DNA of 64,000 nt, taken from NCBI RefSeq assembly GCF_900090265.1, contig NZ_LT607752.1:3782001-3846000 (forward strand), in the 5' to 3' direction. Shown here one piece after another: positions 25,208 through 28,074 of the stretch (position 1 is the first letter of the stretch; each line of letters starts with the position of its first letter). Position numbers and translations under genes: made by a program. The stretch is from Micromonospora rifamycinica. Its GTDB lineage: Bacteria > Actinomycetota > Actinomycetes > Mycobacteriales > Micromonosporaceae. The notes beneath the pieces were generated by a model, which ran no database searches, was not told the DNA's origin, and saw only the letters and a list, made by a program, of their open reading frames with translations.

Positions 25208-26551
25208 ATGGGCGCCGACCACACCCGTACCGCTCCGTCCACCCCGCCCCGGGTGCGGCGGATACTCGTCCTGACGGTGGTTCCGCTCATCGTCGTCACG
25301 GTGGTCGCCACGCTGCTGCTCTGGCCGGGCGAGACCCGGCGGATCGACCAGGGCGAGCAGGTGCCCCGCCACCACGGCACGGTGACCCGGGTGGTGACCG
25401 AACCCTGCCCGCCCGCGCCGGAGACCCCCGACGGGCCGTCCGGGGCGGACGCCGGCCCGTGCGGCACGGTGACGGTCGCCGTCGAGCAGGGGCCGGACAG
25501 CGGTGAGCAGGTCGAGACGCCGGTCCCGTCCGGGCCGGGGGCACCGACGGTGGCCGTCGGTGACGAGGTGGTGCTGGTCGCGCTGACCGACCCGACCGAC
25601 CCGGTGGCGGTCAGCTACCACATCGCCGAGCACCAGCGGGGTACGCCGCTGCTCTGGCTGGTCGCCCTGTTCGCGGCGGCGATCGTGGCGTTCGGCCGGC
25701 TCCGTGGGCTGGCCGCCCTGGCCGGTCTCGGCGCCAGCTTCGCCATCCTGCTGACCTTCGTGGTGCCGGGCATCTCCGCCGGGGGCGCACCGCTGCCCAT
25801 CGCGATCACCGGCGCCGCGCTGATCATGTTCGTGGTGCTGTACCTGACCCACGGGATCACCGCGCAGACCTCGGTGGCGGTCCTCGGCACCCTGGGCAGC
25901 CTGGTGCTGACCGGGGTCCTGGGCACGCTGGCCACCGCCGCCACCCACCTGACCGGGTACGGCAGCGAGGAGGCCACCACGCTGTCGATGTACCAGCGCG
26001 ACGTGGACCTGCACGGCCTGCTGCTGGCCGGGATCATCATCGGCTCGCTCGGCGTGCTGGACGACGTGACCGTCACCCAGGCGGCCACCGTCACCGAGTT
26101 GGCCCACGCCAATCCCGGGCTCTCCCGGTTGCAGCTCTACCGGGCCGCCACCCGGGTCGGCCGGGCGCACATCGCCTCCACGGTGAACACCATCGTGCTG
26201 GCGTACGCGGGGGCTTCGCTGCCGCTGCTGCTCCTGCTCACCGCCGACAGCCGGCCGCTGGGGCAGATCCTCACCAGCGAGTTCCTGGCCCAGGAGATCG
26301 TCCGGAGCGCGGTGGCCACCCTCGGGCTGGTGGCGGCGGTGCCGCTGACGACCGGGCTGGCCGCGCTGGTCACCACCGCCGGCCGCGGCCCCGCCGACGC
26401 CGCCGCGGCCGGGCCGCCGCCCACCCCGCGCCCGGCTCCCGACCGGGCCGAGGCGTGGCAGGCGCTGGGCGCGCCCCGACCCGGCGGACCGTCCACCCCG
26501 GCCCCCGCCCGGTGGGCGGATCCGGAGGGGAACACGGAAGCGGCATGGTGA
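25208..26551 (+). CDS. YibE/F family multi-spanning membrane protein
   Basis: 447 residues from the ATG at 25208. An N-terminal helix (about 20-40) leads to an external domain with Cys (TEPCPPAPE, AGPCGT). Then come about seven membrane helices (145-410) with the family signatures GITAQTSVAVLGT and GSLGVLDDVTVTQAA. The Pro-rich tail is cytoplasmic or disordered. The family is a putative transporter with no settled substrate. TACCAT at 25115-25120 could be a -10 box. It is separated from csoR by 168 bp and is probably transcribed alone. Confidence 0.87.
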   Translation: MGADHTRTAPSTPPRVRRILVLTVVPLIVVTVVATLLLWPGETRRIDQGEQVPRHHGTVTRVVTEPCPPAPETPDGPSGADAGPCGTVTVAVEQGPDSGEQVETPVPSGPGAPTVAVGDEVVLVALTDPTDPVAVSYHIAEHQRGTPLLWLVALFAAAIVAFGRLRGLAALAGLGASFAILLTFVVPGISAGGAPLPIAITGAALIMFVVLYLTHGITAQTSVAVLGTLGSLVLTGVLGTLATAATHLTGYGSEEATTLSMYQRDVDLHGLLLAGIIIGSLGVLDDVTVTQAATVTELAHANPGLSRLQLYRAATRVGRAHIASTVNTIVLAYAGASLPLLLLLTADSRPLGQILTSEFLAQEIVRSAVATLGLVAAVPLTTGLAALVTTAGRGPADAAAAGPPPTPRPAPDRAEAWQALGAPRPGGPSTPAPARWADPEGNTEAAW

Positions 26552-26622
26552 CACTCCGCTTCGTGACCGGAGGCGGGGTCACCACTGTCGATCCCGCCGC
26601 TGGTCACCGGCCGCTATCGGGA

Positions 26623-26634
26623 AAATACGTATTT
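26623..26634. promoter_or_regulatory. AT-rich 12-bp palindrome upstream of the riboswitch
   Basis: AAATACGTATTT is a perfect palindrome and one of the most AT-rich stretches in the window. It lies about 60 bp before the riboswitch. It could be a regulator site or part of the promoter; no regulator is adjacent. Confidence 0.4.
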
Positions 26635-26684
26635 CGCCGGGTTGTGGCCGTAGATTCCTGCTACGACTCTCGGGTAACCTCGCT

Positions 26685-26845
26685 GCCGGTCACCGCCGAA
26701 GGCGCCCACCGGCGCCAGCGGGGCCACCGCCCAATCGCCGTACGGCGAGCCGGGGAACCGAGCACCTGGGGTGAATCCGCGCCAGCGGTAGGGGCCACTT
26801 CCGTCCCGAACCCGTCAGCTAACCCGGTCGGCGGTCGACGGAAGG
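26685..26845 (+). promoter_or_regulatory. ydaO-type c-di-AMP riboswitch
   Basis: The leader carries the conserved blocks of the ydaO/yuaA class in order: CCGGGGAACC (about 26750), ACCTGGGGTGAATCCGC (about 26765), and CCCGAACCCGTCAGCTAACC (about 26807), followed by a GGCGGTCGACGGAAGG closing segment that runs into the ribosome site of the gene at 26853. In actinobacteria this class typically sits before cell-wall hydrolase and resuscitation genes and turns them down when c-di-AMP is high. Boundaries are approximate. A covariance-model search would settle them. Confidence 0.9.
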
Positions 26846-26852
26846 GAAAACT

Positions 26853-27878
26853 GTGACGGCACCCCTACGCCGCTGGCTGACGCCGGCAGTGGCCGTGCTC
26901 GCCGCCCTGGCGATCGTCGCCGGGCCCACCGCCGCCCCCGCGACGGCGGCACCCAACGCACCCTCCCCCTCGGGCCACGAGGAGGACGAGGAGCCGAAGC
27001 TGCTCACCGACGTCATCGAGGCCACCAACCGGGAGTACTCGGCGGCGAAGAACCGGCTGGAGAAGTCCAAGAAGCGCCAGCTCGAGTACGCCATCGAGGT
27101 GGAGAAGGCCGAGCAGGAGCTGACCGCGCTGGCCCCGCAGGTCAACGAGATCGCCGCCCAGTCGTACCGGACGGGTCGGGTCGGCGCGGTCGCCGCCCTG
27201 CTGGAGAGCGACGCCCCGGACGCCTTCGTCCGGCGGGCCGCCGCCCTGGACGAGCTGAACATGGTCAACGCCGGCAAGCTGGCCGAGGTCAACGAGGTGA
27301 GGACCCGGGCCGAGAAGGCCAAGCTCGCCGTCGACGCCGAGGTCCGTGAGCAGCAGAAGCAGACCAACCTGATGGCCAAGAAGAAGACCGAGGCGGACAA
27401 GGCACTGGCCCTGGTCGGTGGCCGGGGCTTCACCGGCGGCCTGGTCGACGCCACCTCGCCGGTGGCCCGCATCGCGCCGGGCCAGACGGCCGACGGCGAC
27501 TGGCGTGCCGAGTCGTGCAGCGAGAACGACCCGACCACGTCCGGTTGCATCACCCCGCGCACGTTGCACATGTACAAGGAGGTCAAGCGGGCCGGCTTCA
27601 ACCGGTTCGTCGGCTGCTACCGTCCCGGTGGTCCCTGGGAGCACCCCAAGGGCAAGGCGTGTGACTGGTCGTTGCAGAAGAGCGGCTTCAGCCCGTGGCA
27701 CAACAACGACACCCGGATGTACGGCAACAACCTCGCCGCGTTCCTGCTCCGCAACGCGGACCGGCTGGGCATCTACTACGTGATCTGGAACCGGCAGATC
27801 TGGTTCCCGGCCAACGGATGGAGTTCCTACTCCGGCCCGTCCAACCACACCGACCACGTACACGTGTCCCTGTTGTAG
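26853..27878 (+). CDS. Secreted coiled-coil protein with ARB-07466-like C-terminal domain
   Basis: 341 residues from a GTG with AAGGGA upstream. Residues 1-33 are a signal peptide (PATAA cleavage region). Residues 48-190 form a long coiled coil like the helical domains of NlpC/P60-type wall hydrolases (RLEKSKKRQLEYAIEVEKAEQELTAL region). Residues 215-341 are a small globular domain with Cys at CSEND, GCITPR, VGCYRP and KACDW and an ending NHTDHVHVSLL, matching ARB-07466-type domains. No NlpC catalytic triad is visible. The riboswitch ties it to c-di-AMP and so to wall or osmotic state. It ends 66 bp before a strong terminator. Confidence 0.88.
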   Translation: MTAPLRRWLTPAVAVLAALAIVAGPTAAPATAAPNAPSPSGHEEDEEPKLLTDVIEATNREYSAAKNRLEKSKKRQLEYAIEVEKAEQELTALAPQVNEIAAQSYRTGRVGAVAALLESDAPDAFVRRAAALDELNMVNAGKLAEVNEVRTRAEKAKLAVDAEVREQQKQTNLMAKKKTEADKALALVGGRGFTGGLVDATSPVARIAPGQTADGDWRAESCSENDPTTSGCITPRTLHMYKEVKRAGFNRFVGCYRPGGPWEHPKGKACDWSLQKSGFSPWHNNDTRMYGNNLAAFLLRNADRLGIYYVIWNRQIWFPANGWSSYSGPSNHTDHVHVSLL

Positions 27879-27943
27879 CGACGCGACGACGCGGCATCCG
27901 AATCCCGGACACCGCGTCCTCGACCCGGTGGGTCGAGCGAGCA

Positions 27944-27990
27944 CTCACGGCGGAGGCCGCCCGGTCGAACCGGGCGGCCTCCGCCGTGAG
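27944..27990. terminator. Long convergent terminator hairpin
   Basis: A perfect 22-bp stem (27944-27965 with 27969-27990) with a 3-nt CGA loop separates the secreted-protein gene and the convergent carbonic anhydrase gene. It is the longest perfect GC hairpin among the terminators here. Confidence 0.88.
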
Positions 27991-28012
27991 CGGGTCTCGG
28001 CCGGACGGCCGT

Positions 28013-28074
28013 CGACGGGCGTGCCCCAGCCGGCGACGGCCGGCGACGGGCGTGCCTCAGCCGGCGACGGCCGC
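28013..28074. repeat. 31-bp tandem duplication over the end of the carbonic anhydrase gene
   Basis: Units at 28013-28043 and 28044-28074 differ at only two positions. The second copy contains the TCA (28057-28059) that is the stop codon of the leftward carbonic anhydrase gene; in the first copy that position reads CCA. The first copy therefore lies wholly beyond the gene. Confidence 0.88.

Follow-up and report, generated by a model that had tools for sequence, protein, structure and literature searches.

The window (the whole 64-kb stretch of DNA that was analysed) carries, on its forward strand, a gene for a secreted protein of 341 residues that directly follows a riboswitch of the ydaO/yuaA class (Table 1). 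A cmscan search matches this leader to RF00379 (ydaO/yuaA, c-di-AMP) at 84.5 bits (E 3.1e-18), where the gathering score, the curated cut-off, is 38, and the match spans model positions 1–134 of 134; no other RNA family reaches gathering level in the 64-kb window. The initial annotation had proposed a ydaO-type leader, and the Infernal check with the ydaO–yuaA model bears this out with a covariance match well over the cut-off and over the full model. It had also described the leader as reaching the start of the gene, which holds, as 3 bases separate the end of the model from the GTG start codon; its span, however, began too early, the aptamer starting about 33 bases after position 26685. The leader is a genuine c-di-AMP-class riboswitch, and it is predicted to bind c-di-AMP and thereby to change expression of the gene. 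Upstream, a YibE/F-like gene on the same strand ends at 26551, and downstream lies a carbonic anhydrase gene on the opposite strand, convergent with the riboswitch gene. Between these convergent genes, at 27945–27990, is a long GC-rich inverted repeat (GGCGGAGGCCGCCCGGTCGAACCGGGCGGCCTCCGCC) without a T run, possibly a bidirectional terminator. The window also holds the complete kdp set reported earlier (KdpA, KdpB, KdpC, KdpD and KdpE), at about 7.7–15.7 kb on the minus strand.

Table 1. Features of the riboswitch and of the gene behind it; positions are those of the window.
Feature	Position	Strand	Basis or remark
c-di-AMP (ydaO/yuaA) riboswitch aptamer, RF00379	26718..26849	+	cmscan, full model
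Aptamer hairpin-loop strand CUUCCGUC of predicted pseudoknot (P7)	26798..26805	+	Perfect complement of 26837–26844
3′ strand GACGGAAG of predicted pseudoknot, most of Shine–Dalgarno inside	26837..26844	+	Conserved in Micromonospora orthologues
Shine–Dalgarno sequence GGAAGGG	26840..26846	+	Sequence; 6 bases 5′ of start codon
CDS, 341 aa: signal peptide, coiled coil, predicted MT3/VldE-type LAS zinc peptidase	26853..27878	+	GTG start
Sec-type signal peptide, residues 1 to ~33	26853..26951	+	Read by eye, no predictor
Coiled coil, residues 51–189, like FtsX-docking coils of RipC/EnvC/PcsB	27003..27419	+	RipC NCBIfam, profile, Foldseek
Predicted MT3/VldE catalytic domain, residues 207–341 (approximate start)	27471..27875	+	AF2, Foldseek, profile
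Putative zinc ligands H264 and D271 (H-x6-D)	27642..27665	+	Align with VldE H301, D308; invariant in 31 diverse MT3 domains
H332, D334, H335, H337 (HTDHVH)	27846..27863	+	Align with VldE H370, D372, H373, H375

The product had been described as lacking a known catalytic site, a description that proves wrong, because all residues essential in VldE align in the window protein. The solved domain of VldE (S. pneumoniae) matches the C-terminal domain at E 4e-6 in a single-sequence search, at E 7e-9 with a profile of 12 relatives and at E 1.6e-27 with a profile of 31 diverse MT3 domains. With a domain-only AF2 model (31-sequence alignment, pLDDT 93.5, pTM 0.87), Foldseek returns five crystal structures of VldE (E 4e-8 to 7e-8, TM up to 0.79; 9flk at 3.9e-8), and nothing besides VldE under E 0.001. 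The initial annotation had called the C-terminus ARB-07466-like and not NlpC; this stands, and the label agrees with the MT3 domain, because an ARB-07466-like protein is the second structural match of the domain in the viral library, where a mycobacteriophage tape measure protein appears further down. Neither the window protein nor the 31 MT3 domains obtained a usable Pfam domain (three weak VanY matches; the Pfam set searched apparently has no MT3 model), so that the identity of the domain rests on the PDB profile, the fold and the residues.

In VldE, H301, D308 and H375 are zinc ligands, H370, D372 and H373 are likewise needed for activity, with D372A inactive, and R294 stabilizes the catalytic water (PMC11667670). 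All residues whose loss inactivates VldE are present in the window protein (H264, D271, H332, D334, H335 and H337), together with the active-site arginine R257, which aligns with R294; H337 aligns with the zinc ligand H375. Across the 31-sequence MT3 alignment H264, D271, H332, H335 and H337 never vary, and R257 reaches at least 90% conservation. By residues and modelled fold, then, the C-terminal domain is predicted to be a LAS zinc peptidase (clan MD) of the MT3/VldE type with a complete active site. Such a secreted zinc enzyme would very probably cut cell-wall peptides, as the MT3 motif in proteins of phage TM4 and M. smegmatis degrades peptidoglycan (PMC1796659). VldE itself cleaves the stem peptide of peptidoglycan at its L-Ala/D-Glu bond (PMC11667670), likely the bond cut here as well; the target of the protein, earlier considered open, would on the strength of the VldE-type domain lie in the stem peptide.

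In the N-terminal half, the signal peptide was recognized by its basic N-terminus, hydrophobic core and ATAA-P cleavage-like site, and the hydrolase-type coiled coil that had been seen on this secreted protein finds support in matches of the RipC/EnvC/PcsB type. The RipC NCBIfam model matches residues 10–165 (E 3e-5) at 23 bits, far below its cut-off of 425, and a profile search matches RipC from the M. tuberculosis FtsEX–RipC structure at E 0.004. A first AlphaFold model of the full-length protein (12-sequence alignment) has a low overall pLDDT of 56.8, with parts of two long helices at 70–90, and in a Foldseek search with this model VldE is followed by EnvC–FtsX, RipC–FtsEX and PcsB at E 0.04–0.1. 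A wall hydrolase of the RipC, NlpC/P60 kind was considered and ruled out, as the RipC model covers those residues only and the product has no Pfam match to the NlpC/P60 catalytic domain. Because the full-length model has low overall confidence, FtsX docking is something we infer: the distant matches at E 0.004 and 0.04 suggest that the coil probably docks on an FtsX-type membrane partner that would keep the enzyme in check.

Riboswitch and enzyme gene are closely linked. Among 80 orthologues drawn from named Micromonosporaceae genomes (Micromonospora, Verrucosispora and Salinispora), 79 have the riboswitch core no more than 160 bases 5′ of the start. The genome (7.0 Mb, one contig) encodes one DisA-type cyclase and has four RF00379 matches. 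Three of them stand before the window gene, a 352-residue paralogue and an NlpC/P60 protein; the fourth is followed, after about 290 nt, by the gene of a secreted protein resembling a C39-type peptidase. The NlpC/P60 and C39-type labels come from reading of the sequence, not from a family search. A riboswitch core also immediately precedes an MT3 gene in three genomes that belong to another family; in three more, from a further family, the MT3 gene follows the core at about 160–330 bases. By simple motif counts, the riboswitch-controlled genes across the order are mostly NlpC/P60, with the Rpf type and MT3 as minorities. The genome's third MT3 gene (5167498–5167902) has no riboswitch core within the stretch examined. 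At seven riboswitch–C39-type loci and at seven others, among them the three genomes of the further family, a short open frame of 14–47 codons follows the riboswitch and a Shine–Dalgarno sequence, and the wall-enzyme gene lies 100–400 bases further on. Three of these short peptides (L195, L200 and L207) are alike (VECxLHLPTR...CxPWNVSRLPG), and the frames may possibly be riboswitch-controlled leader peptides.

Within the leader, the loop strand and the 3′ tail strand would form about seven clean pairs, as the last C of CUUCCGUC is also in the hairpin stem. Five of the seven Shine–Dalgarno bases lie within the tail strand, and the CUUCCGUC/GACGGAAG duplex is calculated at –11.6 kcal/mol versus –6.2 for the modelled anti-Shine–Dalgarno duplex. 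The crystallized ydaO RNA has a stable pseudoknot, and in its printed sequence a like complement can be read, with CUCCUUCG in the loop and CGAAGGAG in the tail (PMC5393176). For a covariation test on riboswitches of the whole class, we scored the best contiguous loop–tail pairing with true and with swapped partners over 3000 permutations. The 112 distinct loops have a true mean of 14.7 versus 13.1 when swapped (sd 0.2, z 8.1; 0 of 3000 permutations as high) and the 37 loops without the common CUUCC give z 6.4, as against –1.2 and 1.3 for the controls (loop versus coding bases, and core versus tail), where these z-values are not to be read as probabilities because partner swapping leaves some relatedness in. 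Changes on both sides of the pairing include CCUCUC/GAGAGG, CCUUUCUG/CAGAAAGG and CCCUUCG/CGAAGGG. Of 172 riboswitches with a recognizable Shine–Dalgarno sequence, the strand overlaps it in 93 and adjoins it in 79, usually just upstream. Judged by its bases, the window riboswitch is predicted to have this loop-to-3′-tail pseudoknot.

We propose that c-di-AMP would fold the aptamer such that its 3′-hairpin loop, CUUCCGUC, pairs with the Shine–Dalgarno strand, GACGGAAG, as a pseudoknot; with the Shine–Dalgarno sequence masked, the ribosome could not start. When c-di-AMP drops, the gene would be translated, and the enzyme, its coiled coil docked on an FtsX-type membrane partner, would be held in check there. 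A translational OFF riboswitch for c-di-AMP, controlling a secreted wall peptidase of the MT3/VldE type whose coil is probably FtsX-docked, is the explanation that we favour and consider reasonably probable. What enters this explanation as computed is the riboswitch, the loop–tail pairing with its covariation, the domain fold with its active-site residues, and the linkage of riboswitch and gene; the OFF direction, the level of translation and the bond specificity are carried over from related systems, and the docking is the deduction set out above. A sequestering OFF switch on translation is most likely because the loop–tail pairing, which here takes in the Shine–Dalgarno strand, covaries across the class, and translation is further favoured as the aptamer ends so close to the start codon and an intrinsic-terminator-like site was not found in 26540–28050. 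In C. glutamicum, the nlpC riboswitch was reported to be an OFF switch and most likely translational, mRNA being unchanged in a reporter test, and its authors proposed a CUCC–GGAG pseudoknot with the RBS (PMC9960051). Ligand-free nested folding also buries the Shine–Dalgarno sequence in most constructs tried, such that the computation does not explain the ON state.

It is rather unlikely, in our judgement, that the switch acts instead on transcription, with c-di-AMP ending transcription early, or attenuating it through Rho, within or close to the 5′ coding region. Such action has a precedent in S. coelicolor rpfA, whose riboswitch reportedly works via early transcription termination (PMC10117811), and the 5′ coding bases CCCCUACGCCGCUGG of the window gene are complementary to aptamer bases CCAGCGGUAGGGG within a strong nested fold. 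Against these stand the want of a terminator-like site in the stretch searched and of almost any space before the start codon, the covarying conserved pairing, which involves the Shine–Dalgarno region, and the unchanged mRNA in C. glutamicum (PMC9960051). As to the early codons themselves, codons 4–8 (within 26853–26876) are complementary to CCAGCGGUAGGGG, and among the 80 orthologues changes in the aptamer are not compensated in this pairing. Codon 5 is the rare leucine codon CTA in 51 of the 80, versus 17 of 2019 leucine codons elsewhere in the gene, and is never CTC; low-GC codons near the start are common.

Alternatively, the pseudoknot might be a structural part of the aptamer in which purine-rich bases fall by chance, with control exerted elsewhere, for example by a start-codon hairpin or by mRNA decay. 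This we regard as unlikely: the crystallized ydaO aptamer does itself have a pseudoknot (PMC5393176), the paired strand lies outside the Shine–Dalgarno sequence at many loci, and some lineages have CGCC...NUGGCG around the start codon, but in the window gene the pairing takes up most of the Shine–Dalgarno bases and is more stable than the anti-Shine–Dalgarno duplex, and the start-codon hairpin is weakly enriched relative to shuffled sequences. In 28 of the 112 distinct riboswitches CGCC lies a few bases 5′ of NUGGCG at the start codon, where its possible pairing partners are the start codon and the P1 3′ strand GGCGG. A general start-codon hairpin of this form is striking by eye and beats shuffles only slightly, which is equally true of base-pairing between the P1 3′ strand and the bases before the start; barely above shuffles, both are lineage features at most.

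A further alternative, in which the MT3 domain would have lost or altered its activity and would now serve for wall binding or regulation, appears quite improbable. VldE E368, which coordinates zinc in a latent four-zinc state, is replaced by S330 at the aligned position, and a riboswitch-controlled paralogue group carries N where VldE has D372, the D372A variant of VldE being inactive; yet E368A retains activity in VldE (PMC11667670), the latent site being a feature of VldE that is not established as family-defining, and the window protein keeps every residue that VldE needs, five of them invariant over the 31 diverse domains. The eight paralogue C-termini read DHTNHVH versus NHTDHVH in the window group, an apparent D/N swap at VldE positions 369 and 372, despite the inactivity of D372A.

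The initial annotation had further linked the kdp operon to the riboswitch gene through c-di-AMP, a link that goes unsupported here. No RF00379 match lies near kdp in the 64-kb window, and the window KdpD, which carries a Usp domain, has neither the published c-di-AMP motif of KdpD, (A/G/C)xSxSxxN(Y/F) (PMC8214093), nor any SxSxxN. A messenger shared by some other route is possible because the genome has one DisA-type cyclase. That c-di-AMP controls both loci and so couples potassium uptake to wall turnover is nonetheless highly improbable: the two do share the window, a c-di-AMP riboswitch controls kdp in B. thuringiensis (PMC6488665) and c-di-AMP acts via KdpD in S. aureus (PMC8214093), but beyond the missing riboswitch and motif, all four RF00379 matches of the genome stand before genes for wall-enzyme-like proteins, the window encodes a full KdpDE whereas in a published survey a kdp riboswitch and a functional KdpDE excluded each other (PMC6488665), and about 11 kb with unrelated genes separates the loci.

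Returning to the sequestering switch, we see a wider reading in which we place about as much belief as doubt, namely that in actinobacteria a single element largely serves both as c-di-AMP aptamer and as expression platform, the pseudoknot strand being or abutting the Shine–Dalgarno sequence, and that this element gates an MT3 L,D-endopeptidase on an FtsX-type coil, a wall-enzyme class new to c-di-AMP. SAM-II and preQ1 switches likewise use a pseudoknot strand of the aptamer as the Shine–Dalgarno sequence or as its neighbour. Both the riboswitch class and the enzyme class are known; we found no report of their combination in the literature searched, outside of which several key papers lie. Loop–RBS pairing had been proposed for one Corynebacterium gene, and the enzyme and the pairing are newly worked out for the window gene. 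A protein of unknown target thereby becomes an enzyme that can be tested, with its catalytic residues named and a bond that it likely cuts, and a mechanism so far proposed at a single Corynebacterium gene gains broad comparative support. The L,D-endopeptidase class joins the wall enzymes that are probably under c-di-AMP control in actinomycetes, where c-di-AMP is tied to osmotic balance. Strong conservation and the well-supported pairing make the mechanism directly testable.

Among known systems, C. glutamicum nlpC (cg2402) is similar in having a ydaO-type aptamer before a secreted wall peptidase and an RBS complement inside the aptamer (PMC9960051). It also agrees with the switch proposed here in being OFF and most likely translational, as reporter experiments indicate for nlpC. 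It differs in its enzyme, which is NlpC/P60 rather than MT3/VldE, and in the pairing, a 4-base proposal in contrast to 8 bases here, where covariation was examined on 112 distinct loops. S. coelicolor rpfA has a riboswitch of this class and, likewise in an actinomycete, encodes a wall enzyme, but the enzyme, Rpf, is lysozyme-like, unlike the MT3 enzyme here, and transcription termination is reported for it (PMC10117811). On the protein side, VldE (Spr1875) of S. pneumoniae has in common the MT3 LAS zinc domain, with its ligands, its R, H, D and HxH residues and its fold (PMC11667670); it differs in a LysM N-terminus and VicRK control, in place of the RipC-like coiled coil and c-di-AMP riboswitch, and in E368, which is S in the window protein. 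The MT3 domains of the mycobacteriophage TM4 tape measure protein and of MSMEG3721 and MSMEG0642 belong to the same peptidoglycan-degrading family, but are found in a tape measure or in small proteins, for which the accessible part of the report describes neither a coiled coil of the window type nor a riboswitch (PMC1796659). Finally, RipC with FtsEX in M. tuberculosis (PDB 8idc; PMC10694151) resembles the window protein, by the distant matches given above, in the sequence and modelled fold of its N-terminal coiled coil, to which RipC joins an NlpC/P60 catalytic domain and the window protein a predicted MT3 domain.
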